Assembly (NCBI RefSeq): GCF_008364845.1 | Contig: NZ_VTTP01000010.1 | Span: 1 to 64,000, forward strand | DNA length: 64,000 nucleotides | Direction of reading: 5' to 3' | Origin: Actinotalea subterranea | Lineage (GTDB): Bacteria; Actinomycetota; Actinomycetes; Actinomycetales; Cellulomonadaceae | Part shown: positions 41,905 through 63,564 of the stretch, piece after piece | How the letters are laid out: each line of letters begins with the position of its first letter | How positions within the stretch are numbered: the first letter of the stretch is position 1 | Made by a program: the position numbers and the translations under genes | Notes under the pieces: generated by a model | The model's database searches: none | The model's input: the letters and a program-made list of their open reading frames with translations, nothing else | Told to the model about the DNA's origin: nothing

Positions 41905-41934
41905 CGGGTGAAAACTCGCGGCGAGTCGGGCTCA
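41905..41934 (+). promoter_or_regulatory. Upstream element shared with pilA
   Basis: CGGGTGAAAAC (41905-41915), 12 nt, GGGCTCA (41928-41934). The same arrangement occurs before pilA at 60581-60552 on the minus strand. A CCGGACACAT word also lies beside both. Confidence 0.4.
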
Positions 41935-41958
41935 AGGCGAGGGCTCCACGCACCGATA
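41931..41958 (+). promoter_or_regulatory. Sigma-28-like promoter of the membrane GGDEF-EAL gene
   Basis: CTCAAG (41931-41936), 16 nt, CCGATA (41953-41958), then GTG at 41967. The -10 to start distance of 8 nt implies leaderless or nearly leaderless mRNA. Same layout as the promoters of pilM, pilA and pilT. Confidence 0.6.
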
Positions 41959-41966
41959 CTTCCCCT

Positions 41967-44234
41967 GTGTCTGGTACCGCCCTGCCCTGGCCCACACTCG
42001 TGCAGTGTCTCGTGGCCGGGGTCGTGATCGGCCTCTGTGCCATGCACGCCGGCTGGTGGCGCGACGGGCTGCGCCGCACCGAGGCCACCTGGACGCTCGC
42101 CTGGTCGGCGAGCCTCGCCGGTGTCAGCCTCGTCAACGGTCTCGCCGGCGCGGTCCCGCCCGGGGCGGCGACCTCGGGCCTCCTCTTCGCCCGTCACGTC
42201 CTGATCGGCGCGGCCATCACCCTGAGCCTCCCTGCCGTGCGCGCGTTCACCGGGGCACGGGGCATCCGCTGGCTCGTCGTGGGCGTGTCCACCTGGTACG
42301 CGGCGGGCGCCGTGCTGTGGCTCAGCACCGACCTCGTGTACGCCCACCGCATCGTGGACGGCCTGCCCCAGTACGGCCCGCTCGCGCCCGCCGCGAGCCT
42401 CCTGCCGCTCCTCGTCGTCGCCGTGTATGTGATGCGCGCCGTGCGCGGGATGACGCTCACGATCGTCGGCGCCGTGGTGGTCGTCACCGGGACCGTGTCC
42501 ACGATGCTCCTCGTGCTCTCCGCCGTGCCGCCGCCGAGCGCGTTCACCGAGCTGCTCATGGGCGTGTGGGCGCTGCCCCTCGTGCTCGGGCTCCAGGTCG
42601 TCGCCGCCGCGCGCATCGGGGCCGTCCGCCGGGAGGGCGACCGCAGGGCCGCGATGCGCGACGCCCTCGCATCCGTGTCGAACGCGGCGTGGCTGGCCAA
42701 GACGCCCGAGCAGATCCTCGAGCGCGCGTGCGACGAGGCCCGCTCGCTGCTCGCCGATCCGTCGATCGAGGGCACGCTGCGTCCGTTGGCGCGTCACCGG
42801 TTCATCACGGAGTTCTACTCCGTCGCCGGCCGGACGCTGGACGCGGACGAGGCGGCGTTCCTGCGCGACCTCGCGCGCATGGTGTCCGGGTCGGCCGAGC
42901 GTCAGGCGCTCACGACGCGGCTGCGGCGGGCGGCCTACACGGACTCCCTGACGGACCTGCACAACCGCCACGCGCTCGACCGCTACCTCGCGGCCGCCCT
43001 CGAGAAGGCGAACGTCGAGCGGAGCCGCGTCGCGGTCCTGTTCTGCGACCTGGACGGGTTCAAGCTCGCGAACGACAGGCACGGCCACGAGTGGGGCGAC
43101 TCGCTCCTCGTCCTCGTGGCAGGTCACCTGCACGCGGTGCTCGGCCCGGACGCCTACGTCGCGCGGCACGGGGGCGACGAGTTCGTGGCCGTCGTCGAGC
43201 GCGCACCGGACGCCGCTGCGCTCCGGGCGCTCGCGCGCCGCATCCGGGACGAGTTCGAGTCCCCGGGCGACGACGTGGTCCGCACCGCGCTGACCGTCGG
43301 CATCTCCGTCTGGTCGCCCGGCGACATCGTCGACCCCTCCGCCCTCGTGCGTGAGGCCGACCTCGCGATGCTCGAGGGCAAGCGGTCGCACGTCGGCGTC
43401 GCGATGTACGACGCGCGGCTGCGGGCGCGCGTCACCGCCGTCACCACGGCGCGCCGGGACCTCGAGGCCGGGGTCCGGGACGGCCAGATCATCGCCCACT
43501 TCCAGCCGCTCACGGACGCCCTGACCCTCGAGGTCGTGGGGCTCGAGGTGCTCGCACGGTGGCGTCGCGACGGCCGGCTGCGCCGCCCAGCGGACTGGCT
43601 GCCGATGGCCGAGGACTCCGGGCTCATCGTCGAGATCGGCCGGCAGATGTTCGCCGCCGCCCGCCGTGGCATGGAGCGCTTCGACCTCCCGGTCGCGGTC
43701 AACGTCGCTGCGCGGCAGCTCGACGAGCCCGACTTCGTCGCGCACGTCGAGGAGGCCTGGGGCACGACCGACTGGGACCGGCTCACGATCGAGGTGACCG
43801 AGAGCGCGCTGCTGTACGACGCCGCGCACGTGCGTGCGTCGCTCGCGACGCTCGTCGACCGCGGCGTACGGATCGCGCTGGACGACTTCGGCACGGGCTA
43901 CAACTCGCTGTCGCGGCTCGGAGAGCTCCCGCTCCACGTCCTGAAGATCGACCGCACGTTCGTGCACGACATCGGGACCACGGAGGGCGCCGCGGTGCTG
44001 CGGGCGATCCTGGCCCTGGCCGAGGCGCACGGCCTCGAGGTCGTCGCCGAGGGCGTCGAGCGGGCCGAGGAGCTCACGGCGCTCGTCGAGATGGGTGTCG
44101 CGACGGTCCAGGGTCACATGCTCGGCCGCCCCGCGGCGAACCTGCCGGTCCGGGGCCGTCGGCCCCGCGCCGTGCCCCGGCCGACACGGCCGACGCTCTT
44201 CGAGTCGTTGCCGTCGGTCCTCGTCCGGAGCTGA
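41967..44234 (+). CDS. Membrane-bound GGDEF-EAL cyclic-di-GMP enzyme
   Basis: 755 aa. Residues 8-215 form about seven membrane helices, probably a sensor. The GGDEF domain is intact (RHGGDEF, 402-406; CDLDGFKLAND) but has no RxxD inhibitory site. The EAL domain has EVL (527-529), VNVAARQL, EVTESALL, DDFGTGYNSL (639-648), LKIDRTFV and AEGVE, all residues for phosphodiesterase activity. So it may both make and break cyclic-di-GMP. GTG at 41967 is set by the sigma-28-like promoter. No Shine-Dalgarno is present. Confidence 0.92.
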   Translation: MSGTALPWPTLVQCLVAGVVIGLCAMHAGWWRDGLRRTEATWTLAWSASLAGVSLVNGLAGAVPPGAATSGLLFARHVLIGAAITLSLPAVRAFTGARGIRWLVVGVSTWYAAGAVLWLSTDLVYAHRIVDGLPQYGPLAPAASLLPLLVVAVYVMRAVRGMTLTIVGAVVVVTGTVSTMLLVLSAVPPPSAFTELLMGVWALPLVLGLQVVAAARIGAVRREGDRRAAMRDALASVSNAAWLAKTPEQILERACDEARSLLADPSIEGTLRPLARHRFITEFYSVAGRTLDADEAAFLRDLARMVSGSAERQALTTRLRRAAYTDSLTDLHNRHALDRYLAAALEKANVERSRVAVLFCDLDGFKLANDRHGHEWGDSLLVLVAGHLHAVLGPDAYVARHGGDEFVAVVERAPDAAALRALARRIRDEFESPGDDVVRTALTVGISVWSPGDIVDPSALVREADLAMLEGKRSHVGVAMYDARLRARVTAVTTARRDLEAGVRDGQIIAHFQPLTDALTLEVVGLEVLARWRRDGRLRRPADWLPMAEDSGLIVEIGRQMFAAARRGMERFDLPVAVNVAARQLDEPDFVAHVEEAWGTTDWDRLTIEVTESALLYDAAHVRASLATLVDRGVRIALDDFGTGYNSLSRLGELPLHVLKIDRTFVHDIGTTEGAAVLRAILALAEAHGLEVVAEGVERAEELTALVEMGVATVQGHMLGRPAANLPVRGRRPRAVPRPTRPTLFESLPSVLVRS

Positions 44235-44354
44235 GCTCCGGACGTCCGCGGCTACCCTCCGCGCTCGTCGCGGGCGCGCGTGACGCCTGCGGCGACAGTT
44301 CCCGGACGGCCCGCGTCGACGGGCGTCAGGCAGGCGTGCGTCGGCCGGCGGGGC

Positions 44355-44771
44355 TCAGGCGAGCAGTGTGGGCTTCAGGTCGACGAGCCGGCCGAGCAGG
44401 CCGTTGACGAAGCCGGGTGACTCGTCGGTGGACAGCGCGCGCGCCAGCTCGAGCGCCTCGTCCACCGCGACGGCGTCGGGCACCTCGTCGTTGAAGAGGA
44501 TCTCCCACGCACCGAGGCGCAGGATCGCGCGGTCGACGGCGGGCATGCGCTCGAGCGTCCAGCCGTGCGAGTACGTGGCGATCAGCTCGTCGATGCGCTC
44601 CTGCCGGCCCAGGACGCCCTCGACGAGCTCGACCGCGTACTGGGGCAGCACCGACTCGGCGCCCGGCTGCGCGATCCGCGCGGCCAGGACGTCGAGCGGC
44701 GGGAGGCCCCGCTGGTCCGCCTCGAAGAGGACGTCCAGCGCGCGCTTGCGCGCCTTGCTGCGTGCGCTCAC
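44355..44771 (-). CDS. nusB: Transcription antitermination factor NusB
   Basis: 138 aa, RNA-binding partner of NusE in ribosomal RNA antitermination. Seen: RSKARKRALDVLFEADQRG (conserved N-terminal helix), WTLERMPAVDRAILRLGAWEIL and PDAVAVDEALELARALSTDESPGFVNGLLGRL, which is nearly invariant. GTG at 44771, 4 nt after the efp stop. The 120-bp tail-to-tail gap with the GGDEF-EAL gene holds only weak hairpins. Confidence 0.96.
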   Translation of the reverse strand: MSARSKARKRALDVLFEADQRGLPPLDVLAARIAQPGAESVLPQYAVELVEGVLGRQERIDELIATYSHGWTLERMPAVDRAILRLGAWEILFNDEVPDAVAVDEALELARALSTDESPGFVNGLLGRLVDLKPTLLA

Positions 44772-44775
44772 CTGG

Positions 44776-45339
44776 TCAGTCGTTCACTCGGCCGAGGTAC
44801 GAGCCGTCACGCGTGTCGACCTTCACCCGCGTGCCGGTCTCGAGGAACAGCGGCACCTGGATCTCGGCGCCCGTCTCGAGCGTCGCGGGCTTGGTGCCGC
44901 CCGTCGAGCGGTCGCCCTGCAGGCCCGGCTCCGTGTAGGTGATCTCGAGCACGACCGACGGCGGGAGCTCGACGTAGAGCGGGCTGCCCTCGTGCGTCGC
45001 GACCATCGCCTGCTGGTTCTCGAGCAGGTAGTTCGCCGCGTCGCCCACGGTCGCGGCCGGGACGTACAGCTGGTCGTACGTCGAGGAGTCCATGAAGACG
45101 AAGTCGGTGCCGTCCTTGTACAGGTACTGCATGTCGCGCTTGTCGACGTTGGCCGTCTCGACCTTGGTGCCCGCGTTGAACGTCTTGTCGACGACCTTGC
45201 CCGAGAGCACGTTCTTGAGCTTGGTGCGGACGAACGCGCCACCCTTGCCCGGCTTGACGTGCTGGAACTCGACGACGGCCCACAGCTGGCCGTCCAGGTT
45301 GAGCACGGTCCCGTTCTTCAGGTCATTGGTGGTCGCCAC
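44776..45339 (-). CDS. efp: Elongation factor P
   Basis: Relieves ribosome stalling at polyproline. 187 aa, three beta-barrel domains (KOW-like, OB, C-terminal OB). The tip loop is [11 protein letters not shown] with Lys32 for modification or direct action. GTG at 45339 follows AGGAAG at 7 nt; a longer reading frame would add an Arg-rich stretch not seen in EF-P. Followed at once by nusB. Confidence 0.97.
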
Positions 45340-45449
45340 GTCGAGTCTTCCTGTCGAGTTCGCAAGGATCGGAGTCCGGCGCCGCCCGGCCACGGCCCGG
45401 CGGTCGCTGCCGCGGTGCCGGGTGGCCGCCTGCGGCGAGGACGCCGGAC

Positions 45450-45455
45450 AGTCTA
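45450..45455 (-). promoter_or_regulatory. Candidate -10 for efp-nusB
   Basis: TAGACT on the minus strand about 111 nt before the efp start; the -35 region is poor. It is the only TANNNT match in this 164-nt gap. Confidence 0.3.
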
Positions 45456-45503
45456 GCGCCGCGGCCCCGCGCGGCCGACCGGGACCCGACGTCGGGTGGC
45501 GCG

Positions 45504-45956
45504 TCAGGCGCCCATGACGGCACGCATCGCGGCGCCCACGGCGACCGCCCAGAGCATCGAGGCGAACGTGCCGATGACGAACCGCTCCGAGGTGCTGGGA
45601 TTCTCACGGAGCTCGGGGTACCGGCCGAGGCCCTTGATCGCGATGACGAAGGCGATGCCCGCCGGGTACCCCGCGAGGAGCGAGCCGGTGATGGCGAGGC
45701 GTTCCAGGATGCCGATCCAGGTGCCGCCTCGCAGGCCCTCCTCGGACGTCACGTCCGGCGCCGCGCCGGCGTCGTCCGTGGCGTCCGGACCGGTCGGGTC
45801 GCCTTCGACCGAGGTGTCGCCGGACGGGCCGTGCCCGGCGTCGGTCGAGCGCGAGGCGAGCTGGAGCACAGCCGTGGTCAGCGGCCAGCCGCCGACGGCG
45901 CTCAGCGCGAGCCCGACGAGGCCGACGAGCACAAGCAGCCAGGCGTCCATGGTCAA
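45504..45956 (-). CDS. Membrane protein paired with the SatD-like regulator (DUF3307/SatC-like C terminus)
   Basis: 150 aa. An N-terminal helix ([21 protein letters not shown]), an acidic linker (about 38-70), and a C-terminal pair of helices with [31 protein letters not shown] and [12 protein letters not shown]. The last part looks like the C terminus of DUF3307/SatC-type proteins, which are encoded with SatD. ATG at 45956, 26 nt after the regulator. Function unknown; a membrane partner of the regulator is inference. Confidence 0.7.
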
Positions 45957-45981
45957 CTCCCCCGTGCTGCCGCGCCCGGGC

Positions 45982-49036: not shown

Positions 49037-50935
49037 TCAGGCGGCCGGCGGCCTGACGGACGCGGCGTCCGTGGCGCCGATCCAGGCGACGACCTCGTGC
49101 GCCGGCATGGGCCGCGCGATGTGGAAGCCCTGGACGTGGTCGACGCCGAGCCTGCGCAGGGCCGTGAGCTGGTGGCCGTGCTCGACACCCTCCGCGGTCA
49201 CGGCGAGGCCGCGGGACGCCGCGAGCTCGACCATGAGCTCGACGAGCGCGGCGCACCCCGGCTCGTCACGCAGGCCGTCGACGAGCCACCGGTCGATCTT
49301 GATGCCGTCCACCGCGAGACCGGTGAGGTGGCGCACGCTGGTCAGCGCGCTGCCGACGTCGTCGAGCGTGACGAGGACGCCCGTCGCACGGAGCTCCTCG
49401 AGCGCCGGACGCGCGGCGACGACCTCCTCGTAGGAGCACAACTCGGGTATCTCGAGGCGCAGGCTCGTCGCCGGCAGGTGGGCGCGCTCGACCACGCCGC
49501 GCACGCGGCGCGCGAGGTCGGGCGCCCGCAGGGCCGCGGGGCTGAGGTTGACGTCGAGGTGTTCGGGGGCAGCGGGGCCGAGCACCCGACGCCACGCGAC
49601 GACGGCCTGGGCGGCCTGACCGAGGACCCACAGGTCGAGCTCGAGGCCGAGGTCGTCCTGGGCGGCGAGCGCGAGGGGCCCGCCCGGCCCCTGGAGCTCG
49701 CCGTCGGGCGTCCGGTGGCGCAGGAGCGCCTCGACGCTGCGGATGGCACCGCCCGTCGTGTCGACGATGGGCTGGAAGTGCACCTCGAGCCTGCCCTCGA
49801 GCGGGAGGGCGCACGGCAGGCCGTCGGCCCCCATGCCGAGCACGAACCCACCGGATGCCCGGGGCCCGCGCGCGTGGGCGCCCCGGCTCGCGACGTCGAG
49901 CACCGAGACGCGCACCGCGTCGCCTCCCGCGCGCTTCGCCGCGTACATCGTCAGGTCCGCGTGCTGGAGGAGGTCGTCCCGGTCGAAGACCGACGTGGTC
50001 AGCGCGATTCCGATGCTCGCACGCGTGTCGGCGGGGCCGACGGTCGTGCGCGGGCCCGGCACGGCGCCCTCGGCCGGGGCGCCGCCATGGCCCGCGAGGT
50101 CCGTGATGGTGGCGCGCAGCCGCTCCCCCAGCGCGTGCGCGTCGGCGACCAGGGCGCGCACGCTCTCCTCGCGCCCCCGGGTGGCGTCGGGGGCGGCGAC
50201 GAGCCGCGCGACCGCGAACTCGTCGCCACCGAGCCGGCCGAGGAGCTCGTCGGGGCCCAGCCCGGCGGCGAGGCGGTGCGCCACGCCGCGCAGGAGCGCG
50301 TCGCCCACCGTGTGCCCGCGGGTGTCGTTGACCTCCTTGAGACGGTCGAGGTCGATGTACGCGAGGAGCAGCGCGTGCCCCGCCTCGCGCGCGAAGTCGC
50401 ACATCTGCCCCAGCCCCGCGTGGAACGACGCGCGGCTGGACAGGCCCGTCAGGGCGTCGCGGGAGGCGTGCCGCGCGAACCTGTCGGCGAGCGCCTCCAT
50501 GACCGCCGTCGGGCGGAGGACGCCGACGGGTGTCATCGCGGCGTCGACGACGACGAGGTCGTGGTAGGTCTCCTTGCGCGCGCCGGTCGTGAGCATCGCC
50601 GCGGCCTCCGTGAGCGGGGCGGTGTCGGCGATCAGCCGGGGCGACCAGTCGGTGACCTCCGCGACGGGTCGCTTCTCCCACAGCGCGCGCCCGTAGCCGT
50701 ACTGCCCGGTCATGGTGCTCATGAACGCGTCACGCGACACGATCCCGAGGCGCGGGCCGCCCGCGCCACCGCGGACGAGGACCGACGTGGTGCTCCACCG
50801 CGACCGCAGCTCGCGGTCCACGGTGCCGCACGAGACGGACGCCTCGACCACGACGGGCGGGTCGGCGAGGTCGCGCAGCGCGATGCGGCCGTCGGCCTCG
50901 AGGTCGATCCAGCGGGCTGAGGTCGTAGCGGTCAC
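49037..50935 (-). CDS. CBS-GGDEF-EAL protein
   Basis: 632 aa, soluble. N terminus (about 25-150) looks like a CBS-pair with the FMSTMTGQYGYGRALWEKRPV segment found in such GGDEF/EAL proteins. GGDEF is intact (LGGDEF, 236-240) without an inhibitory RxxD. EAL is present (402-404), with VNLSP and AEGVE, but loop 6 reads LDDVGSALTS rather than DDFGTG, so phosphodiesterase activity may be weak. GTG at 50935 is preferred over 50992 since a sigma-28-like promoter overlaps the longer form. The gene interrupts the aro cluster. Confidence 0.88.
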   Translation of the reverse strand: MTATTSARWIDLEADGRIALRDLADPPVVVEASVSCGTVDRELRSRWSTTSVLVRGGAGGPRLGIVSRDAFMSTMTGQYGYGRALWEKRPVAEVTDWSPRLIADTAPLTEAAAMLTTGARKETYHDLVVVDAAMTPVGVLRPTAVMEALADRFARHASRDALTGLSSRASFHAGLGQMCDFAREAGHALLLAYIDLDRLKEVNDTRGHTVGDALLRGVAHRLAAGLGPDELLGRLGGDEFAVARLVAAPDATRGREESVRALVADAHALGERLRATITDLAGHGGAPAEGAVPGPRTTVGPADTRASIGIALTTSVFDRDDLLQHADLTMYAAKRAGGDAVRVSVLDVASRGAHARGPRASGGFVLGMGADGLPCALPLEGRLEVHFQPIVDTTGGAIRSVEALLRHRTPDGELQGPGGPLALAAQDDLGLELDLWVLGQAAQAVVAWRRVLGPAAPEHLDVNLSPAALRAPDLARRVRGVVERAHLPATSLRLEIPELCSYEEVVAARPALEELRATGVLVTLDDVGSALTSVRHLTGLAVDGIKIDRWLVDGLRDEPGCAALVELMVELAASRGLAVTAEGVEHGHQLTALRRLGVDHVQGFHIARPMPAHEVVAWIGATDAASVRPPAA

Positions 50936-50944: not shown

Positions 50945-50972
50945 GATCGGCGCCCGAAGGCCCGGCCGTGAG
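50945..50972 (-). promoter_or_regulatory. Sigma-28-like promoter of the CBS-GGDEF-EAL gene
   Basis: CTCACG (50967-50972), 16 nt, CCGATC (50945-50950), then GTG at 50935 ten nt further. One mismatch from the CTCAAG seen at the pil promoters. Confidence 0.5.
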
Positions 50973-52364: not shown

Positions 52365-53156
52365 TCAGCCGACCGGCGCGAACGGGTTGCGATCGCTCGA
52401 GGGGAGCGGCGTCTCGGTCGGCTCGGTCGGCTCGTCCGTGGGTGCGACGACTGCCGTCGGGTCCTCGGGCAGCACGTAGATGAACCCGTCGATCGTCAGG
52501 TCGAGGTCGCCCCGCGCACTCGCCGGCTTCCCACCCGACGCCTCGGCGTCGTCGAGCGTCGTCGCGTTGATCGCGGAGACGAGGTACAGGCGCTGGTTCC
52601 CCGTCTGGACCGTCTCGAGGAAGGCCGTCGTGTTCGCATACGTACCCATGACCTGGATCGAGACGGGCACCGACACGAGCCGGCTCGTCGGAGCGGCGGG
52701 GGCCGTCGCGGTGCCGTCCGTGGCGCCGGCGTCATCGGCCGCGTCGGCGTCCTCAGCGGGAGCGTCCGCGACGCTCTCCGGCTCCACGGCCACGACGGCC
52801 GTGACAGGCACGAGCGCCGTGGGCGTGCCCGGCGTGACGCCGACGATCGTGACGCCGGTCGTCTCTGCGGCGGCCTGGAGCTGGCGGATGTACCCGGTCA
52901 GGTCGGCCACGGCAGGGATCTGGCCCTGGATCGCGGCGAGCTCGGCCTTGTAGGTGTCGAGCTCCTCGAACTGCGTGCGCAGCGTCTCGAGCTGGACCCG
53001 CAGCATGTCCTGGCGCGCGAGGGCGTCGTCCACGGCGACCCGCGTCTCCCCCGCCTCCTTGAGCTTGGGGGCTGCCGCGAGGAACCACGTGCCGACGAGG
53101 ATCACGACGGCGAGCAGCGCCGTGCCCACCGCCCAGGTGCGTGTCTTGGATGCCAT
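52365..53156 (-). CDS. pilO: Type IV pilus inner-membrane alignment protein PilO
   Basis: 263 aa. A single N-terminal helix ([21 protein letters not shown]), a coiled coil (about 35-85, [19 protein letters not shown]), then a ferredoxin-like domain typical of PilO ([22 protein letters not shown]). Acidic ([14 protein letters not shown]) and Thr/Pro-rich tails are extra. Pairs with PilN. ATG at 53156, 1 nt after the pilN stop. Confidence 0.88.
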
Positions 53157-53157: not shown

Positions 53158-53856
53158 TCAGCTCTCCTCCTCGGCGACGAAGCGCTCGGCGTACGCGTCC
53201 GCCGTGAGCAGGATCGTGCCGCTCACCTGGTAGTAGATGGTCCCGTCGTCGTCCGCGAGCTGCGCGGAGCTGAACCAGGGGTTCGTGAAGCCGCGGACGC
53301 CGGCCAGCTGCTCGACCCACTGCGACGTGTCGGGCAGCGTCAGGGACCGCGCGTCGAACGTGATCATCCCGACGGTGGCCAGGGGCGCGAGCGGGTCGGT
53401 CGTGGGCGCGATCGGCGCCGCTGACGCGGGCGTCACGGTGGTCACGCTGATGCCGTCGACGCTCACCCCCGCCGGCGCGGTCGCGGCGATCGCCGAGAAG
53501 TACTGGCGCCACACGGTCTCGGTGGACATGCCGAGCGTACGGGCGTCGGTCGCCTCCTTGAGCTGGTTGAGCACGCGGGGCACCTCGGCGAACTCGGCCT
53601 GCTGGGCGGTCAGGTTGGCGTTCTGCTCCTCGACCTCGGCGAGCTCGTTCTGCGCCTGGGTCGCGGAGAACGCAGCGAAGACGAACATGAGGCCTGCGAG
53701 CAGGATCGTCACGAGGATCGCGACGCCGAGCCACCCGCGGACGCGCCCGAACTGCCGGGTGGAGCGCACCTCGGGCGGCAGCAGGTTGACCTGGGGGGCG
53801 GGCGGCGCGCCGGGGACGGACGCACGCCGGACCGGGGCGAGGGTGGGGGCGCTCAT
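53158..53856 (-). CDS. pilN: Type IV pilus assembly protein PilN
   Basis: 232 aa. Begins with a cytoplasmic tail carrying VNLLPPEVR, the motif by which PilN docks to PilM, then a membrane helix (about 43-66), a coiled coil, and a periplasm-side domain (here outside the membrane). ATG at 53856 overlaps pilM by 4 nt. Confidence 0.9.
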   Translation of the reverse strand: MSAPTLAPVRRASVPGAPPAPQVNLLPPEVRSTRQFGRVRGWLGVAILVTILLAGLMFVFAAFSATQAQNELAEVEEQNANLTAQQAEFAEVPRVLNQLKEATDARTLGMSTETVWRQYFSAIAATAPAGVSVDGISVTTVTPASAAPIAPTTDPLAPLATVGMITFDARSLTLPDTSQWVEQLAGVRGFTNPWFSSAQLADDDGTIYYQVSGTILLTADAYAERFVAEEES

Positions 53857-54908
53857 GCGGCAACTCCGTACGCGAGACCCATGGGGATGGCCATGAGCGA
53901 ACCCGAGGCGGGCAGCTGACCGGTCGCCGTGCCGGCGACCTTGACGTGGACGAGCGGGTCACCGAAGGCGACGGGCAGCCGGCTCGCGGTGGACAGGTAC
54001 TGGCCGAGGCCGGGCAGGTGCCCCCCACCGCCCGTCAGGAGCACGACGTCGATGCCCGCGCCGGGGTTGTTGCCCTGGTAGTACACGAACGTGTTGCGCA
54101 CCGCCTCGACGAGGCCACGCGTGACCTCGGAGATCGCGTTCGCCCCCGCGCTCAGCTCCGCGGGCACCGCGAAGCCGATCCCGATCTCGCGCTTGAGCTT
54201 CTCCGCCTCGAGCGCCGCGATGGACAGGTGACCGGCCACCGCGTCCGTGACGTCCTGGCCACCCGACGGCAGCGTCCGTGCGAAGCGCGGGACACCACGC
54301 GCGGCGACGATGACGTTGGTCACGCGCGCGCCGACGTCGACGATCGCCACGACCTGCTCGGCGAGCTCGCCGCGCGCGAGCGACCGCAGGAGGGCGAAGG
54401 CGTTCAGGTCGACCATCTGGGGCCGCAGGCCCGCGCTCTCGACGGCCATGACGTTCGACCGGACGGTCTGGCGCGTCGCGGCCACGAGGACGCCGTGCAG
54501 CGTGCGACCGGTGCCCGTCTCGGACTCGCCCGTCGGGTAGTAGTCGAGCAGGGCGTCCTCGACCGGCATCGGGAGGAGCTCCTGGACCTGGAACGGCAGG
54601 GCCGCGCGGAGCTGTGCCATGGGCATCCAGGGCAGGTCGAGGTCACGGACGACGACGCGCGGGTTCCCGACGCCGATGATCACGTCACGCGTGCTGAACC
54701 GGCCCACCTTCCACAGCTCGCGCAGCACGCTGGCGACGGTCTCGGGCTCGGCGACCTCGGCGTCCTGGACGGCGCCCGGGGGCAGCGGCAGCTCGGCGTA
54801 CCGGACCAGCGTCGCGGCGCCCTTGCCGGGCCCCCCGGAGAACATGAGCTCCACGGCGCGAACGGCGGTCGAGCCGATGTCGAGCCCGATCACATGCGAC
54901 TTGGCCAT
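53853..54908 (-). CDS. pilM: Type IV pilus assembly protein PilM
   Basis: 351 aa actin-like ATPase-fold protein (FtsA family) on the cytoplasmic face. Seen: VIGLDIGSTAVRAVEL at the N terminus, LPFQVQELLPMPVEDALLDYYP, VAIVDVGARVTNVIV and VVLLTGGGGHLPGL. It binds the PilN tail. ATG at 54908 after GAAGGACGG. First gene of pilMNO, from a sigma-28-like promoter. Confidence 0.95.
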   Translation of the reverse strand: MAKSHVIGLDIGSTAVRAVELMFSGGPGKGAATLVRYAELPLPPGAVQDAEVAEPETVASVLRELWKVGRFSTRDVIIGVGNPRVVVRDLDLPWMPMAQLRAALPFQVQELLPMPVEDALLDYYPTGESETGTGRTLHGVLVAATRQTVRSNVMAVESAGLRPQMVDLNAFALLRSLARGELAEQVVAIVDVGARVTNVIVAARGVPRFARTLPSGGQDVTDAVAGHLSIAALEAEKLKREIGIGFAVPAELSAGANAISEVTRGLVEAVRNTFVYYQGNNPGAGIDVVLLTGGGGHLPGLGQYLSTASRLPVAFGDPLVHVKVAGTATGQLPASGSLMAIPMGLAYGVAA

Positions 54909-54947: not shown

Positions 54948-54975
54948 TATCGGGCGATGCACGGGCTGTCTTGAG
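54948..54975 (-). promoter_or_regulatory. Sigma-28-like promoter of pilMNO
   Basis: CTCAAG (54970-54975), 16 nt, CCGATA (54948-54953). A leader of about 32 nt follows before the pilM ATG. Confidence 0.65.
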
Positions 54976-55014: not shown

Positions 55015-55806
55015 TCACAGCATCAGGCCCAGGTACGCGGACCAGAGGGCCTCACCCCAGCCGATGCCGATCGCTGCGCCCAGGATCATCCACGGACCGA
55101 AGGGGATCCCCGACTTGCGCCCGGCCCGCCTGAGCAGGACCAGGGTGACGGCGAACAGGCCACCGACGAGGAACGCGGCGAACGCGCCCACGACGAGCGA
55201 GCCCCAGCCGAGCCACGCAAGAGCGCCACCCACGACGCCCGCGAGCTTGACGTCGCCGCGGCCCATCCCGGCGGGGTAGACCACCCAGAGCAAGCCGTAG
55301 AAGGCGAACAGGGCGGCGGCGCCGATCGCGGCGCGCAGGAGCGAGCCCCAGTCCCCCGAGCCCCAGGACGCGGCGGCGAGCAGCACCGCGACGACGGGGT
55401 ACGCGGGCAGGACGATGGCGTCGGGCAGCCGGTGCACGTCGAGGTCGATCAGCGCGAGCGCGACAGCGATCGCCCCGAGGTACAGGTACGCCGGGACGGC
55501 CCACGGCTGGTCCGTCCAGAAGCGGAGCATCACGAGCGCGAACACGGCGCCCGTCGACGCCTCGACCAGGGGGTACCGCCGCGAGATCGGCGCGCCGCAG
55601 TCACGGCACCTGCCCCGCAGCACGAGCCACGAGAGGACGGGCACGTTGTCCCGCGCCCTGATGCGCGCCCCGCACTGCGGGCAGGCGCTCGGCGGCGAGA
55701 CCACGGACTCTCGGCGAGGTACACGCCACACGACGACGTTGAGGAACGATCCGACCAGCAGCCCGAGGAACGCGGCAGCCAGGGTCACGAGCACGATCGG
55801 GTCCAT
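55015..55806 (-). CDS. pilD: Prepilin peptidase PilD
   Basis: 263 aa polytopic membrane aspartic peptidase that cleaves prepilin leaders and N-methylates. Four zinc cysteines (42, 45, 67, 70: CPQC and CRDC), catalytic Asp in LIDLDVHRLPD (123 region) and GRGDVKL (185). Typical eight helices. ATG at 55806; GTG at 55815 is possible. Follows the lectin pilin by 14 nt, so is translated with the minor pilins. Confidence 0.94.
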   Translation of the reverse strand: MDPIVLVTLAAAFLGLLVGSFLNVVVWRVPRRESVVSPPSACPQCGARIRARDNVPVLSWLVLRGRCRDCGAPISRRYPLVEASTGAVFALVMLRFWTDQPWAVPAYLYLGAIAVALALIDLDVHRLPDAIVLPAYPVVAVLLAAASWGSGDWGSLLRAAIGAAALFAFYGLLWVVYPAGMGRGDVKLAGVVGGALAWLGWGSLVVGAFAAFLVGGLFAVTLVLLRRAGRKSGIPFGPWMILGAAIGIGWGEALWSAYLGLML

Positions 55807-55820
55807 GCCGGTCACCGCGC

Positions 55821-57410
55821 TCAGGGGAGCTCCTGGTAGCCGTCGAGCGACGCGGAGATCGTCATCGGCGGGGCGTTCCACTTCTGGCCGAGGCCGCTGT
55901 TGCACGTCTGGGTCGTCATCTTCGACCAGGCGTTGTCGTACTTGTCGCCGATCCCGATGCACCGGCCCCAGGAGTCCGTGAACGTGTAGGACGTGTCGTA
56001 GCTACCGGTGTTCGCGCGCCGGACCCACTTCTGGCTCGCGAGGTTCGGGTTGCAGCTGCTGGTGAGGGTCACGTAGCCGTTCTCGGTGCCGGGCGAGACG
56101 AGGCAGTACTTCTTGCCCGGGTCGTTGTACTGCATGATGTAGATCGGCTGCGCGGCCGTCGATCCGACGTTGCTCGGGGGCTCGTTGTAGTACCACTTGT
56201 GGTTCCAGAGCAGGTTCGGCTGGCCTGGGATCGGGTCCTGCTTGCAGGGGTACACGATCATGAACGACGAGCCGACCTGCTCACCGGTGACGTCGAAGCA
56301 CCGCCCGAACTCCAGGTAGTTGACGATCTGGTGGGTCTCGTAACCCGCCGCCCCGGCGCCGACGCGCGGGTCCGGGTTGAAGGAACCCCACTCGTTGTTC
56401 GACGGAGACTGGTTCCAGATGTGCAGGTACTTGCCGTTGGGGTCGCTCTTCTGGCCCGAGGACAGCCAGTAGTCCGAGTAGCCGCCGATGATCGAGTCCT
56501 TCTGCCCCCGCCACTTGGCACCGCCCTCCCAGCTGAAGAGCTGGTTCCAGCGCGCCGCGTCGTTCCCCGCCTTGCACACCTGGAGGGTCGCCTTCACGGC
56601 GGTCGAGCCGTTCGGCGTGGCCGTGATGCACAGGGGGGTCAGGCCCATGCCGACGAGCGTCGTGCTCGCGAGCTTGATGCGGTAGTCCTTGTCGTAGATC
56701 CAGAGCTGGTGCACGTCGTTGGTCCCGCAGTCCACCGCCGGGACGTACTTGACGAACGCACCCACGGTCGCGGACTCGGCCTCGAGGCAGTAGCGGTCAG
56801 GTGTCTTGCTCGGCTCGAAGCTGTAGATGAGGCCGCCGGGGATGTTGTTGTTCGTCACCTGGAACTCGTAGATCACCGAGACGGTGCGGTCGCCGGCGTC
56901 CGCGTCCATGCCGGCGACGCCGTCGCCGAGCCCGGTCGAGGTCACGAGCGCGTAGCCCGGGTCCTTGTTCGGCCCGGTCCCCGGCGTGCACGGGATCGCG
57001 TTCGTGGCGACCCAGCTGGCGCTCTTGCCCGTGGGGTCGGTCACGAAGTACTGGACCGTCGCCGAGTAGGTGAGGGTCGCACCCGCGCCGTCGACCGGGC
57101 CCTGGGCGGTGCAGGGCAGCTTGCCGCGGTCGCCGTAGACGGTGTTCGTGGCGTCCGGCGGCGCGGCGGCCGTGCGGATCTGGCCCACCACGGCGTTGAC
57201 GCCGGCCTCGGCCGCGAAGACCGTCTGGCTGCTCGCACGGACGTACGTCGTCGGCAGGGCCTGGGACATGAGGATGCCGAGCAGAAGGATGCTCAGCATC
57301 GCGGTGATCATGATCGCGAGCAGGGTCGTGACCATCGCCACGCCCTCGTCTCCGCTCCGGGCGGTGCGTGACAGGGGACGCCGGCGCAGGCTGGCGAGCA
57401 GGGATCTCAT
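55821..57410 (-). CDS. PilX-like minor pilin with C-terminal ricin-type lectin domain
   Basis: 529 aa. N terminus has a short basic leader ending in DEG then a hydrophobic helix (VAMVTTLLAIMITAMLSILL, about 24-48), as in PilX-type proteins, though the usual Glu at +5 is missing. After a linker come beta-trefoil repeats: QLW (235-237), CLE, CFDV (371), CLVS (436), QKW (460-462), CIGI (484) and QKW (509-511), with twelve cysteines likely in disulfides. Such QxW repeats bind sugars. ATG at 57410 overlaps the next gene upstream. Confidence 0.82.
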   Translation of the reverse strand: MRSLLASLRRRPLSRTARSGDEGVAMVTTLLAIMITAMLSILLLGILMSQALPTTYVRASSQTVFAAEAGVNAVVGQIRTAAAPPDATNTVYGDRGKLPCTAQGPVDGAGATLTYSATVQYFVTDPTGKSASWVATNAIPCTPGTGPNKDPGYALVTSTGLGDGVAGMDADAGDRTVSVIYEFQVTNNNIPGGLIYSFEPSKTPDRYCLEAESATVGAFVKYVPAVDCGTNDVHQLWIYDKDYRIKLASTTLVGMGLTPLCITATPNGSTAVKATLQVCKAGNDAARWNQLFSWEGGAKWRGQKDSIIGGYSDYWLSSGQKSDPNGKYLHIWNQSPSNNEWGSFNPDPRVGAGAAGYETHQIVNYLEFGRCFDVTGEQVGSSFMIVYPCKQDPIPGQPNLLWNHKWYYNEPPSNVGSTAAQPIYIMQYNDPGKKYCLVSPGTENGYVTLTSSCNPNLASQKWVRRANTGSYDTSYTFTDSWGRCIGIGDKYDNAWSKMTTQTCNSGLGQKWNAPPMTISASLDGYQELP

Positions 57411-58087: not shown

Positions 58088-59922
58088 CACCGGTACACCT
58101 GCCACGTGAACGTCACCGGCGGTGAGGCGAGCATCTGGTTGGGCGCGACGCCCTGGATCGTGTACGTCGCGGAGCACGACTTGGGCGAGCTGTTCCACGC
58201 CACGTCAGGTGCGTTGTAGTAGGTCGTGCCCGAGCTCGTGCTGAACGAGCCGCAGTTGGCACTCGGCGTCCCCAGGACGATCTCGGTGGCACTCGCGCCG
58301 CCGACGACCGGGAAGTCGTTGGCGCCGAGGCGCGCGACCGGGTCGAACACGGGCTTGGTGTTCCGCTTGAAGGAGCCCACGTCCTCCGGCGTACCCGACG
58401 GGAGCACCTGGATCGTCACGCTCCGGGGGGCACTCACCGAGCCGTCCGTGCGGGCGAGGGCGTACTGGAACGTGTAGGTGCCGACCTTGTTCGCGGGGTC
58501 GTACCGGACCACGGTGCCCGGAGCGCTCGTGCCCGAGCTGTACGTCGCGCCGTCGACCTGAAGGGTCCCGTCGGCAGGCTTGGGCCCGGCGACGATCACG
58601 CGCATGGTCGCGAGGTCGGTGTTCCCCGCGGTGAGCATGGGCGTGAGGTCGGTCCACTGGGGCAGCGTCGCGCTGTGCGTGATGGCGATCGTGCGGTCCT
58701 GGATGGCGATGTTGTCGATCTTCACCGTGACCGTCGCGGGCGGGCTCACCTGGCCTGAGGGGTCCGTGTACGTGTAGGTGAACGAGTCGGTGCCGCTCGT
58801 CACGCCCGCGTTGGGCTTGTAGCTCACGGCGGTACCGGAGATCGTGAGGGACCCACGGCCGGGCGCCGCGGTCACGGCCACGGTCGCCTTGGTGCCCAGG
58901 TCGTTCGCGAGGATGTCGATGGGGTTGGACTGGCCCGCCATGACGCGGACGGAGTCGTTGCTCGACTGGGGCGGGATCGTGAGCGTCACCGTGCCCGGGT
59001 CGGACTGCGCGCCCCGGGCGTCCTTGATGCGGTACGTGAACGTGAAGATGCCCGACGCGTTGGGCGGCACGGTGTACTTGAGCACGCCGGCTCCGGTCGG
59101 CGCCGTGAGCGTCCCCTGCGCCGGGGTGCTCAGGACCTGGACCGGGTTCGAGCCCACCGGGCCCATGAGGTCGTTCGCGAGGACCTTGATCTCCCGCTGC
59201 GGCTCGTTGATCACGAAGTTCTCGAAGTCGTTGACCGCCACCGGCTCGACGACCTGGTTCCACTTGAGGTCACCCGAGCGGTCCACGAGGCCGCTGAGCT
59301 GGTAGCTGCACAGCCCTCCGGTGCACTCTCCCGCGGTCGGCTCCCACGTCACGAGCGTCGTGATCCGCAGCATGCGCACCATGGCGGCGGGCGTGGCCGC
59401 GTCCCCGGGGTCGCTCGCGTACCCGGGGAGCTTCTGGCAGGTCTGGTCCGTCGCCACCGTGTTGCGGGCCCGGAAGCAGCTCCCGACGAGCGTCGTCACG
59501 TTGTACGTCTGGCCCGAGTGCTCGGTCTCGTACTTGACCGGGAGCGCTGCGGCGCTGGAGCTCGTGGCGGTCGGGTCCCACAGTGCGTAGCTCTGCGCGA
59601 GGCCCTCCGCGCCGAGACCGGACGCGGTGCTCCACGCCGAGACGACGTCAGCCTGCGCGCGTCCCACGACGATCGAGGGGGTCGTCGTACCGATCTTGTC
59701 CTTGGGGTCGAGCCCGTAGGCGCGCTCCATCGCCTCGTTCGCGACGGCCACCGCGTTCTGCGACCGCTGGAGGTGGCTCGTGGTGCGCGTGCCCTCGAGG
59801 AAGAAGTAGAGCGACGCGGTGGCGACGATGCCGAGCAGGACGAGGGACACCACGACCTCGATGAGCGTGAAGCCGCTCTCGTCGTCCTGGAGCGGGCGCA
59901 TCACACGCGGCAGTCTGGGCAT
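58087..59922 (-). CDS. Large prepilin with tandem cadherin/Ig-like domains
   Basis: 611 aa. Leader of 17 residues ending DDESG, then FTLIEVVVSLVLLGIVATA with Glu at +5 (Glu22). Pilin body to about 225. Then four beta domains, of which the first two fit the cadherin-like/VCBS-type repeat (EIKVLANDLMGP.. about 228-317 and PIDILANDLGTKAT..GTDSFTYTYTDPSG about 320-402). The last two (405-507, 520-611) are related. A surface adhesin role at the tip is inferred. Confidence 0.85.
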   Translation of the reverse strand: MPRLPRVMRPLQDDESGFTLIEVVVSLVLLGIVATASLYFFLEGTRTTSHLQRSQNAVAVANEAMERAYGLDPKDKIGTTTPSIVVGRAQADVVSAWSTASGLGAEGLAQSYALWDPTATSSSAAALPVKYETEHSGQTYNVTTLVGSCFRARNTVATDQTCQKLPGYASDPGDAATPAAMVRMLRITTLVTWEPTAGECTGGLCSYQLSGLVDRSGDLKWNQVVEPVAVNDFENFVINEPQREIKVLANDLMGPVGSNPVQVLSTPAQGTLTAPTGAGVLKYTVPPNASGIFTFTYRIKDARGAQSDPGTVTLTIPPQSSNDSVRVMAGQSNPIDILANDLGTKATVAVTAAPGRGSLTISGTAVSYKPNAGVTSGTDSFTYTYTDPSGQVSPPATVTVKIDNIAIQDRTIAITHSATLPQWTDLTPMLTAGNTDLATMRVIVAGPKPADGTLQVDGATYSSGTSAPGTVVRYDPANKVGTYTFQYALARTDGSVSAPRSVTIQVLPSGTPEDVGSFKRNTKPVFDPVARLGANDFPVVGGASATEIVLGTPSANCGSFSTSSGTTYYNAPDVAWNSSPKSCSATYTIQGVAPNQMLASPPVTFTWQVYR

Positions 59923-59959
59923 CGCCGTCCTCGTCCGAAGCTGTTCGTGCGGAACCGTC

Positions 59960-59991
59960 GATGGGCCGGGACCGTGCGGTCCCGGCCCATC
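59960..59991 (-). terminator. Hairpin between pilA and the minor pilin genes
   Basis: Perfect 15-bp stem (59960-59974 with 59977-59991) with a minimal loop, 11 nt after the pilA stop. No T run. It likely acts as an attenuator or 3' stabiliser that lets pilA mRNA exceed the minor pilins. Confidence 0.65.
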
Positions 59992-60002
59992 AAGCGGTCA
60001 GA

Positions 60003-60455
60003 TCAGGCGCCGCAGGCGACGTTGAGGCCGCCACCGGTGCTGTTGTACGTGATCGCCGTGCCGTCGTTCTTCGCGTTGCCGCTGGCGTTGTAGCCCTTGA
60101 GGCAGTAGCCACCGTCCGCCTGGACCTTGTACGTCACGACGTTGTCAGAGCTGACCTTGACGTCGATCGCCGTGGGCGACGCGACGTCCGGCGTCACGAC
60201 GACCGCGGCACCGGCTGCGGTCTGCGCGACGGTCTTCGGCTGCTTCTGCGTGTCCACGACCACCGTCTCGATCGTCGTGGCCACCGTGCGGAGGTCCGAC
60301 TTGACCGAGGAGTCGACAGCGGACTTGCGCTGGTTCAGGAAGACCGGGATGGCGATCGCGGCAAGGATGCCGATGATGATCATGACAACGAGGAGCTCGA
60401 TCAGGGTGAAGCCCTGGTCCTTCTCGTCGATGGACTTGCGGATGCGCGAGATCAT
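60003..60455 (-). CDS. pilA: Major type IV pilin PilA
   Basis: 150 aa. Leader MISRIRKSIDEKDQG, cleaved before Phe16; then FTLIELLVVMIIIGILAAIA with Glu20 (+5). Body: alpha-C helix (VKSDLRTVATTIETVV), a beta region and one likely disulfide (Cys118-Cys148), ending ACGA. Classic type IVa. ATG at 60455 after GAGGGAG. Its own sigma-28-like promoter and a 3' hairpin suggest high expression. Confidence 0.95.
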   Translation of the reverse strand: MISRIRKSIDEKDQGFTLIELLVVMIIIGILAAIAIPVFLNQRKSAVDSSVKSDLRTVATTIETVVVDTQKQPKTVAQTAAGAAVVVTPDVASPTAIDVKVSSDNVVTYKVQADGGYCLKGYNASGNAKNDGTAITYNSTGGGLNVACGA

Positions 60456-60484
60456 TGCGCTCCCTCTCGTGTGCAGAGTGAATT

Positions 60485-60500
60485 CGCCGGGTTCCCGGCG
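60485..60500 (-). promoter_or_regulatory. Hairpin in the pilA leader
   Basis: CGCCGGG and CCCGGCG arms with an AA loop within the roughly 60-nt untranslated leader. Could protect the abundant pilin mRNA from decay. Confidence 0.4.
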
Positions 60501-60520
60501 CCTGAGTGATACGTGCAGTT

Positions 60521-60548
60521 CATCGGAGCCTCGCGCGCAGACCTTGAG
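60521..60548 (-). promoter_or_regulatory. Sigma-28-like promoter of pilA
   Basis: CTCAAG (60543-60548), 16 nt, CCGATG (60521-60526). The upstream CGGGTGAAAAC element (60571-60581) is shared with the GGDEF-EAL gene at 41967. Confidence 0.65.
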
Positions 60549-60609
60549 GCGTGAGCCCGGACACATGCGCGTTTTCACCCGGTCGGCCCAGACGGTGGCG
60601 CCAGCCCCA

Positions 60610-61839
60610 CTACTCGATGAGCTCGAAGATGTTGAAGATGGGCATGTACAGCGCGATGATCATGGTCCCGACGATGCCGCCGAGGACCGCGATCATGAGG
60701 GGCTCGATGAGCGACGTGAGCTGCTCGGTCGTCGCCTCGACCTCCTGGTCGTAGAAGTCCGCGATCTTCGCGAGCATCTCGTCGAGCGCGCCCGTGTCCT
60801 CGCCCACGGCCATCATCTGCACGACCATCGGCGGGAAGACCGGGTGCTTGGACAGCGGCCCCGTGAGGGACTCACCGCTGCGCACCGAGTCTCCGATGTC
60901 CTTGGTCGCGCGCTCGATGACCACGTTGCCGCTCGTCGCACCCACGATGCTCAGGGCCTGCAGGATCGGGACGCCGGCGTGGATCATGGTGCCGAAATTG
61001 CGGGTAAATCGGGCAACTGCGATCTTTTGGAACAACTTGCCGAAAATCGGCACCTTGAGCTTGAGCGGGTCCACCTTGTCCCGCACCGACTGCTTGTGCT
61101 TGTTCTTCGCCCACCAGAACGAGAAGATGACGGCTGCGACCAGGAGAACGGGCCCGCCGATCTTCATCCAGTCAGACAGCGTGACCAGGATCTGCGTGGG
61201 CAGCGGCAGCTCGCCGCCGAGGTTCGCGAACATGTTCGCGAAGATGGGGACGATGAACAGGAGCATGCCGACCACGGCGAGGATCGCGATCGCGAACACG
61301 ACGATGGGGTAGGTCATCGCGGACTTGACCTTGCCGCGCAGCTTGACCTCGGACTCGAAGTTCTCGGCGACCGAGACGAGCACCTGGTCGAGGAAGCCGC
61401 CGACCTCGCCCGCCTTGATCATGTTGAGCATGAGGGGCGGGAACACCTCGGGGTGCTTGCCGAGGGCCACAGAGAGGGCGGAGCCCGTCTCGACGTCGCT
61501 CCGCACACCGCCAACGATCTTGGCGAGGGCCTTGTTCTCGGTCTGGTCCGCCAGGATCGACAGAGCGCGCAGGATCGACAGGCCCGAGTTGATCATCGTG
61601 GCCAGCTGGCGCGCGAGGATCGCTAGGTCCTTGAGGCTGATCCGGTCCGAGAGGCCGGGGATCTTGATCTCGGCCTGCAGGCCGGTGGTCGACACCTCGG
61701 TGATCGAGACCGGTGCCATGCCCATGCTGCGCAGGCGACCGACCACGGCGTTCTGGTTCGACGCCTCGATGCGGCCCTTGACGAGCTTGCCGCCCGAGTC
61801 CCTGACGGCGTACTCGAAGACCTTGGTCGCGGTGGCCAT
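60610..61839 (-). CDS. pilC: Type IV pilus platform protein PilC
   Basis: 409 aa, GspF family inner-membrane platform. N-terminal cytoplasmic domain (TKVFEYAVRDSGGKLVKGRIEA), two repeated GspF domains (LAILARQLATMINSGLSILRAL and FTRNFGTMIHAGVPILQAL), three membrane helices, and a typical end LIEPLMIAVLGGIVGTMIIALYMPIF. ATG at 61839 overlaps the pilT stop by one base. Confidence 0.95.
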   Translation of the reverse strand: MATATKVFEYAVRDSGGKLVKGRIEASNQNAVVGRLRSMGMAPVSITEVSTTGLQAEIKIPGLSDRISLKDLAILARQLATMINSGLSILRALSILADQTENKALAKIVGGVRSDVETGSALSVALGKHPEVFPPLMLNMIKAGEVGGFLDQVLVSVAENFESEVKLRGKVKSAMTYPIVVFAIAILAVVGMLLFIVPIFANMFANLGGELPLPTQILVTLSDWMKIGGPVLLVAAVIFSFWWAKNKHKQSVRDKVDPLKLKVPIFGKLFQKIAVARFTRNFGTMIHAGVPILQALSIVGATSGNVVIERATKDIGDSVRSGESLTGPLSKHPVFPPMVVQMMAVGEDTGALDEMLAKIADFYDQEVEATTEQLTSLIEPLMIAVLGGIVGTMIIALYMPIFNIFELIE

Positions 61840-63485
61840 CAGATCGCCATCCCGTAGTTCGGCGACATCGGGTCGGCCTGCATCGCGGCTGTCATGCCCT
61901 GCGTGACGCTCGAGGTGCGCCCGACGAGGCGGTTGAAGTCCTCGACGTGATGGCACTTCTCGAGGCCGGCCTCGTAGGAGATGCGGTTGCTGCGCACAAG
62001 GTCGGCGATGTGCTGATCCATGGTGTGCATGCCCTGCTTGGCGCCCGCCTGCATCGCCGAGTAGATCTGGTGCGTCTTGCCCTCACGGATGAGGTTCCGG
62101 ACCGCCGGTGTCGCCAGCAGCACCTCGGTCGCGACCGCACGGCCGCCACCGACGCGCTTGCACAGCGTCTGGCAGACGACGCCCTGGAGCGCGCTGGCGA
62201 GCTGTGTGCGCACCTGGTCCTGCTGGTGGGCGGGGAACACGTCGATGACGCGGTCGATCGTCTGCGCCGCGTCCTGCGTGTGCAGGGTCGCGAAGACCAG
62301 GTGGCCGGTCTCCGCGGCGGTCAGCGCCACGGAGATCGTCTCCAGGTCGCGCATCTCGCCGACGAGGATGATGTCCGGGTCCTGGCGCAGCACGTGCTTG
62401 AGCGCGTTCGCGAACGAGTGCGTGTCGGCACCGACCTCACGCTGGTTGATCAGCGACTTCTTGTGCCGGTGGAGGAACTCGATCGGGTCCTCGACGGTCA
62501 TGATGTGGTCGCTGCGCGTGCGGTTGGCGAGATCGATCAGGGCCGCGAGCGTCGTCGACTTGCCCGAGCCCGTCGGGCCCGTCACGAGAACCAGACCACG
62601 CGGCAGGCCCGCGAAGTTCCCGACCACGGCAGGCACGCCGAGGTCCTCGAGCGGCTTGATCTCGTACGGGATGGTGCGGAACGCCGCGCCGAGCGAGTCA
62701 CGCTGGCGGTAGACGTTGACACGGAACCGGGAGACTCCCCGTACGGCGTAGGCGAAGTCGAGCTCGAGCGCCTGCTCGAACGTCTCGCGCTGACGCTGGC
62801 TGAGGATCGCGTAGAGCGTGCGCTGGAGCGAGTCCGGGTAGAGCGTCGGGAAGCCCTCGAGCGGCTTCAGACCGCCGTCCTGGCGGATCATCGGCGGTGC
62901 GCCGGACGTCAGGTGCAGGTCGGAGGCACCCAGCTCGATCATCGCGCGGAGCGCGTTGTCGAGGTCGATGTCGCCCTGCTCGATCGCCTGCGCGAGGCCG
63001 ACGCGGGACGTGCCTGCAGCGCTCCGACGAGTCGTGCGCTGCTCCGGCGGGGCACCCGCGGGCGCGGCAGGTCCGGCGGGCGGTCCCGCCTGTCCGCGCG
63101 GCGGGCCGGCGGGCGGTGCGGGCGGGTACGCAGCCGGGGCCGCCGTCGCCGACGGCACGGGCAGGGACGGCGCCAGCGGGCGCGCGACAGGGGGCACGGC
63201 GGGCGCCGCGCCAGGCTGGCCGGCGGCCCCGAAGGGGCTCGGACCGCCGAGCGGTACCGCCTGCGCGTACGGGGCGGCCTGCGACGGCTGGACCGGGGCG
63301 TGCGACGGGTACGCGGGACCGGAGCGGGACGTGTCGGTGTACCCGGCCGGCGGAACCGGGGTCTCCCCCGTTGCCGGGCGGTACCGGCCGTCGACCACGC
63401 GGGCGTCTGGCGCGGCTGCAGCGAGCGGTGGCGGCGCCAAGGGGTGCACCGGCTCGCTGCCGTTCGCAGGGTGGTACTCGTTCAC
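61839..63485 (-). CDS. pilT: Type IV pilus retraction ATPase PilT
   Basis: 548 aa. A 165-residue Pro/Ala/Gly-rich disordered N terminus is far beyond the usual PilT size. The rest is a standard PilT: ASDLHLTSGAPP, Walker A GPTGSGKST (303-311), DPDIILVGEMRDLETI, HLVFATLHT, and AVRNLIREGKTHQ, the AIRNLIRE motif specific for PilT. So retraction, and probably twitching, is possible. GTG at 63485 after GAGAGG. Confidence 0.95.
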   Translation of the reverse strand: MNEYHPANGSEPVHPLAPPPLAAAAPDARVVDGRYRPATGETPVPPAGYTDTSRSGPAYPSHAPVQPSQAAPYAQAVPLGGPSPFGAAGQPGAAPAVPPVARPLAPSLPVPSATAAPAAYPPAPPAGPPRGQAGPPAGPAAPAGAPPEQRTTRRSAAGTSRVGLAQAIEQGDIDLDNALRAMIELGASDLHLTSGAPPMIRQDGGLKPLEGFPTLYPDSLQRTLYAILSQRQRETFEQALELDFAYAVRGVSRFRVNVYRQRDSLGAAFRTIPYEIKPLEDLGVPAVVGNFAGLPRGLVLVTGPTGSGKSTTLAALIDLANRTRSDHIMTVEDPIEFLHRHKKSLINQREVGADTHSFANALKHVLRQDPDIILVGEMRDLETISVALTAAETGHLVFATLHTQDAAQTIDRVIDVFPAHQQDQVRTQLASALQGVVCQTLCKRVGGGRAVATEVLLATPAVRNLIREGKTHQIYSAMQAGAKQGMHTMDQHIADLVRSNRISYEAGLEKCHHVEDFNRLVGRTSSVTQGMTAAMQADPMSPNYGMAI

Positions 63486-63536
63486 GACGGGCCTCTCGAT
63501 CGAACAGCGCAGGTTGTGCTGGGCTACCCGTGGTTC

Positions 63537-63564
63537 TATCGACCGGGCAGCCGTCGGGCTTGAG
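63537..63564 (-). promoter_or_regulatory. Sigma-28-like promoter of pilT-pilC
   Basis: CTCAAG (63559-63564), 16 nt, TCGATA (63537-63542), in the 100-bp gap after pilB. Confidence 0.6.

Follow-up and report, generated by a model that had tools for sequence, protein, structure and literature searches.

The window, by which we mean the whole 64,000-nucleotide stretch of Actinotalea subterranea DNA analyzed, contains type IV pilus genes and two genes for GGDEF-EAL proteins, and five of these genes are preceded by a two-block motif, CTCAMG-N16-YCGAT. Its features are:

41931-41957, + strand: predicted WhiG-class promoter, CTCAAG-N16-CCGAT, with a GTG start 9 nt downstream
41967-44234, + strand: membrane GGDEF-EAL protein (Pfam GGDEF, 117 bits; EAL, 185 bits; membrane part as read in the original prediction)
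49037-50935, - strand: GGDEF-EAL protein, CBS match below threshold; start placed by frame reading at GTG 50935, 10 nt past the motif
50946-50972, - strand: candidate promoter, CTCACG-N16-CCGAT, the weakest of the five
52365-53156, - strand: pilO-like gene, downstream in the cluster (Pfam PilO, 26.8 bits; cut-off 22)
53853-54908, - strand: pilM (Pfam PilM_2, 138 bits)
54949-54975, - strand: predicted WhiG-class promoter of the pilM operon, exact in the named relatives
55015-55962, - strand: prepilin peptidase, pilD-like (Pfam A24_N_bact and Peptidase_A24)
60003-60455, - strand: pilA, major pilin (Pfam N_methyl, 37.9 bits, on the open reading frame 60003-60578)
60522-60548, - strand: predicted WhiG-class promoter of pilA, based on relatives' upstream DNA
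60610-61956, - strand: pilC (T2SSF; Pfam, 222 bits)
61839-63485, - strand: pilT-like ATPase with an N-terminal extension (Pfam T2SSE, 155 bits)
63538-63564, - strand: predicted WhiG-class promoter of pilT, CTCAAG-N16-TCGAT, based on relatives' upstream DNA
63586-63987, - strand: C-terminal portion of a T2SSE ATPase encoded upstream and cut by the window end (Pfam T2SSE positions 258-370), probably pilB

The CBS domain of the 49037-50935 protein falls under the Pfam cut-off (15.4 versus 24 bits), and the pilA ATG, placed by frame reading, would lie 66 nt past the motif. The pilT-like protein is 45-47% identical to 362-aa PilT-like proteins and 77-79% identical to the L241 protein. Long C and G runs lie within positions 1-140 of the window, at the contig start, and are possibly an assembly or read-end artefact.

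The original prediction held that five two-block motifs with a fixed 16-nt spacer are real signals, and the counts bear this out. Exactly five CTCAMG-N16-YCGAT matches occur in the window compared with a mean of 0.13 in 100 dinucleotide shuffles, the shuffle maximum being one match and none of the 100 reaching five. All five aim at a start codon, as had been claimed; the predicted sites were correct, but their 28-nt spans were off by one at one end, the motif being 27 nt long. Across the genome (4.03 Mb, 28 contigs), the pattern matches 17 times and its reversed form once. When judged from open frames and GC content by codon position, without a gene caller, six of the 12 matches outside the window are intragenic (L006, L007, L014-L017) and six are upstream-positioned (L008-L013), one of the latter having a poor matrix score (L010). 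With the five in the window, 11 of the 17 matches are upstream-positioned, which speaks against the possibility, raised with the original prediction, that the motif is equally common inside genes.

The GGDEF family has 22 matches genome-wide, four of them with an exact site upstream, and two of those four are in the window. Among the upstream-positioned motifs outside the window, one precedes a GGDEF gene (L009), one precedes a LuxR/GerE-type gene (L013), and one, CTCACG-N16-CCGATAA, precedes a DUF7793/SpoIIAA-like gene that overlaps a GGDEF gene in an operon (L008; L075, G000:C8:1-1491). The CTCACG member in the window, claimed for the CBS-GGDEF-EAL gene, is present as a motif, but its strength sets it apart: it scores 14.2 bits with our own matrix, compared with 22.4-25.9 bits for the remaining 13 training sites, making it the least certain of the five. 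The flanks of the six named relatives yielded no ortholog of this gene; the matches obtained there, at 30-34%, were to other GGDEF-EAL genes.

These six relatives are three Actinotalea genomes (PilM identity, 74-76%), followed by Cellulomonas gelida, Pengzhenrongella frigida and C. timonensis (62-64%). CTCAAG-N16-CCGAT is found exactly upstream of pilM in 6/6, with unrelated spacers. Upstream of pilA, [CT]TCAAG-N16-CCGAT is present in four of the six, the other two having CTTAAG-N16-ACGAT (L028) and CTCAAG-N15-CCGAT (L029), and an N16 site lies within 700 nt upstream of pilT in all four relatives that have upstream sequence (CTCAAG in three, GTTAAG in L025). The control neighbour gene aroC has a site in none of the six. 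For the membrane GGDEF-EAL gene, the same site arrangement, 9 nt before the start, recurs in L250 (68% identical) and L315 (69%); the ortholog in L030 has a variant site, and no site was found upstream of those in L026 and L027. Sites obtained at L025 with two GGDEF queries were locus-end artefacts and were left out. Among the 30 best-scoring loci of 71 PilM matches in 69 family genomes, the regex site is found in 26, with four missed by the first regex and judged by eye and score; both N16 spacing and an AG after the tetramer are found in 29, although the G081 and G102 sites lie beyond the scored 115 nt and their N16 comes from a separate pilM-locus scan.

As predicted, no sigma gene lies in the window, where the FliA/WhiG family has no match, and the expectation that the genome carries a fliA/whiG gene proved correct twice over. 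The FliA/WhiG model scores 272.2 bits (cut-off, 189.6) for a gene on contig C11 (G000:C11:33182-33862), flanked by a xerC-like recombinase gene and rpsB-tsf-pyrH, with a further open reading frame intervening (names assigned by eye), and 159 bits for a flagellin-adjacent gene in the flagellar cluster of contig C22. Among solved structures, the C11 sigma matches WhiG from the RsiG complex 6pfj best (333.5 bits), and the top FliA reaches 164.7; by these bit scores, the C11 sigma appears nearer to WhiG than to FliA. The C22 protein scores ~100 bits against both kinds. The flagellar cluster also contains a 110-aa open reading frame that has no Pfam match. Both sigma types are found in all six named relatives, and three family genomes (G082, G108, G121) have three FliA/WhiG-family matches each, one WhiG and two FliA-like.

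Genomes with a single sigma gene separate the two factors. We counted a match above the family cut-off as WhiG and a weaker one (128-187 bits) as FliA, so that this assignment rests on bit scores. The 150 family genomes contain 446 CTCAAG-N16-CCGAT matches compared with 23 for the reversed pattern. The mean is 5.71 copies in the 56 genomes with both sigmas (PilM in 54, flagellin in 54), 4.77 in the 13 with WhiG only (PilM in 11, flagellin in 1), 1.22 in the nine with FliA only (PilM in 1, flagellin in 9), and 0.74 in the 72 with neither (PilM in 3, flagellin in 4). Copies are higher in WhiG-only than in FliA-only genomes (p 0.0008), while FliA-only genomes do not differ from those with neither sigma (p 0.39); both comparisons are between related genomes and are uncorrected for shared ancestry. 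Even genomes with neither sigma remain above the reversed control (0.74 vs 0.19).

PilM tracks WhiG (65 genomes with both, four with WhiG alone, four with PilM alone), and flagellin tracks FliA at the threshold used (63 with both, two with FliA alone, five with flagellin alone). The four genomes that have PilM without WhiG have lower PilM scores (75-104 bits), and the pilM site is retained in each of the five WhiG-only genomes represented in the 30 pilM loci. Two genomes are exceptions. G021 has FliA, no WhiG above the cut-off, a low-scoring PilM and seven motif matches, none of them in its pilM region or upstream of fliA, and G149 has both sigmas and PilM and no exact match, its pilM site reading CTCATC. 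Four genomes of one genus (G065, G079, G101, G110) have flagellin and no FliA/WhiG match at E 1e-36; perhaps their sigma is a more diverged form.

These counts bear on whether the motif belongs to another regulator altogether or has arisen by chance in GC-rich DNA. Two genomes have CTCAAG-N16-CCGAT ahead of MerR/BldC-like genes (L249, L313), the spacers being similar, and because a similar word is present in G033, which has neither sigma, that particular site may serve another regulator. For the motif as a whole, however, two blocks at fixed spacing around a freely diverging spacer, a fixed position before starts, the 446 to 23 ratio and the co-occurrence with WhiG make this explanation scarcely credible. 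We reject a chance origin on the shuffles and on the reversed pattern, both in the genome and in the 150 family genomes.

The flagellar region has a different spacing. The original prediction expected the motif to be enriched before flagellar and chemotaxis genes, but our flagellar region (C22:290000-333299) has no CTCA-N18-CCGAT, which corresponds to the CTCAMG-N16 class, and has nine CTCA-N17-CCGAT instead. The window has five N18 sites and no N17; the pilT site, with TCGAT, falls outside these five, and the fifth, at 60871(+) inside pilC, is additional to the predicted sites and probably due to chance. Six of the N17 sites precede open reading frames read as a glycosyltransferase, fliC, flgB, flbD, fliM and cheA, of which flagellin alone was confirmed by family search; one precedes a lipoprotein-like open reading frame, and two more lie at 294923 and 302183+. 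In 30 flagellin upstream regions from the family, the gap from tetramer to CCGAT is 17 (N15) in 24, 16 (N14) in five and 19 in one, and never 18, the value in 29/30 pilM loci. An AG follows the tetramer in three of the 30 when scored identically to pilM. Thus, the classical FliA pattern, in which one motif precedes both flagellin and chemotaxis genes, failed: N16 spacing is found in 0/30 flagellin upstream regions.

That the flagellar FliA-like sigma alone drives the pilus and c-di-GMP genes as one classical flagellar regulon is therefore very improbable. FliA-family promoters do look like the motif, and a fliA gene is present in every named relative, but flagellin is unmatched in 12 of the 13 WhiG-only genomes, a group that averages 4.8 copies, the pilM site persists in the five of them that were sampled, and the flagellar region has its different spacing. 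Given the single-sigma genomes and the spacing split, we reject the idea that flagellar FliA reads the pilus class. The predicted sigma-28 regulon for pili and c-di-GMP holds as to family, based on conservation and co-occurrence, the sigma of the pilus class most likely being the WhiG ortholog and not flagellar FliA.

The two regulons appear to meet at fliA. The only WhiG-class site of our flagellar region lies upstream of our own fliA and ends in CCGAA. Using a pattern relaxed after inspection of the sequences, [CT]TCAAG-N16-NCGAN, we found a site before fliA in 12/17 two-sigma genomes (our own, the six named relatives and ten further genomes, two of the 17 being close relatives), compared with 0/9 FliA-only genomes, which are all nine in the family (p 0.0007); five of the 17 have no fliA site. 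The final -10 base is never T (CGAA in seven, CGAG in three, CGAC in two), and because their -10 elements lack this T, a thresholded matrix scan missed the relatives' fliA sites.

The WhiG-class -35 of fliA is one of several observations that would fit a single overlapping regulon of pili and flagella, in which both sigmas read both classes and spacing only tunes strength. The two -10 elements are almost identical, our own fliC site (CTCAAG-N15-CCGAT) comes near the pilus class, and G021 retains motif matches with FliA alone. We consider such an overlap unlikely, since the pilus class is kept in WhiG-only genomes while FliA-only genomes are at background, and since N16 spacing is found in 29/30 pilM but 0/30 fliC upstream regions.

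We inspected all 38 exact matches from five genomes (G014, G142, G137, G127, G105), assigning genes by Pfam, location match, similarity or eye. Pilus targets comprise five pilM, four pilA and seven PilT/PilB-type ATPase genes, and regulatory and c-di-GMP targets comprise three GGDEF-EAL, four LuxR/GerE-type and two MerR/BldC-like genes; three lie before genes of one unknown family, and the remaining ten, whose assignments are other or unclear, include at least one that is probably intragenic. In about 12 of the 38, the start codon lies 9-10 nt past CCGAT, as in the first window gene, which suggests leaderless messages; the mRNA from the 41931-41957 promoter is probably leaderless. A LuxR/GerE-type regulator follows a WhiG-class site in our own genome, G142, G014, G137 and G105 (L013, L242, L254, L300, L314). 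The proteins of these five genomes are 54-78% identical to each other, and the regulator is a possible new member of the regulon.

Taken together, we assign a probability of about 0.82 to the reading that a WhiG-type sigma-28 factor serving pili and c-di-GMP uses the window sites as promoters, with FliA reading the N17 class, a pairing of sigma to promoter class that we infer from sequence comparison. WhiG would read YTCAAG-N16-CCGATR and switch on the pilus operons (pilM, pilA, pilT) together with several genes for c-di-GMP synthesis or hydrolysis. It would also activate the LuxR/GerE-type regulator gene and, in many lineages, that of the flagellar FliA-like sigma. This second sigma would read CTCA-N17-CCGAT before flagellin and, by position, before other flagellar and chemotaxis genes, and the two regulons would be separated by the one-base difference in spacing together with the AG that follows CTCA. 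We give an even chance to the wider proposal that two sigma-28 paralogs of one cell are separated by a one-base shift between the -35 and -10 elements, that WhiG stands above FliA by driving fliA, and that c-di-GMP enzymes are an output of the sigma factor and not its input, WhiG having lost both RsiG and its c-di-GMP contact.

RsiG is the c-di-GMP-binding partner of WhiG elsewhere. According to the accessible text of PMC8325347, Rubrobacter RsiG with c-di-GMP holds WhiG, whose promoters precede pil and DGC/PDE genes, Actinoplanes has WhiG and lacks RsiG, and WhiG Lys57 contacts c-di-GMP in the solved complex. An RsiG helix profile had no match at E ≤0.001 in any of the 150 family genomes (the top one, at 0.0089, covers 11 of 27 positions), although a strongly diverged RsiG could escape it; as a control, the profile found matches in 88/246 genomes of the class. 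Lys57 is replaced by Thr, Ser or Asn in all 36 WhiG loci, covering 33/33 distinct genomes, while G61 is changed in 16/33 and R62 is kept in 32/33. Because RsiG was not found and Lys57 is replaced, these genomes probably lack the coupling of c-di-GMP to WhiG seen in Rubrobacter and Streptomyces; on the same two grounds we reject RsiG control of WhiG.

Our literature search, with most subscription papers outside its scope, found no description of such a promoter code in Cellulomonadaceae. The arrangement offers a simple code by which two close sigma factors could share a cell, with single-sigma genomes as its natural test cases, and it suggests that a WhiG regulon of pili and c-di-GMP genes outlasts its c-di-GMP-sensing anti-sigma factor. 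Rubrobacter radiotolerans has a comparable regulon: the accessible part of PMC8325347 describes a WhiG-type sigma whose predicted promoters lie in the type IV pilus cluster (3 of 12 with mapped starts) and ahead of DGC/PDE genes (5 of 12). RsiG is present there, whereas we found none here, the -35 was searched as TAAA and not TCAAG, and that part of the source does not mention a further, flagellar sigma that has a spacing of its own. Actinoplanes missouriensis, in the accessible parts of PMC8325347 and PMC13293333, has WhiG without RsiG and three FliA-family sigmas, and its WhiG-like sigmas direct pili and flagella genes. It differs in being filamentous and sporangium-forming, and we saw in those parts neither sigma-by-sigma promoter spacing nor a link to c-di-GMP genes. 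Streptomyces WhiG-RsiG (PDB 6pfj, 6pfv) supplies the solved structure nearest to the C11 sigma, but it controls sporulation and requires RsiG and c-di-GMP, and the Lys57 with which its WhiG contacts c-di-GMP is replaced in our 33/33 genomes. Classical flagellar FliA (sigma-28) regulons share the promoter type and correspond to the N17 class before flagellar genes, whereas here a second paralog would serve pili.
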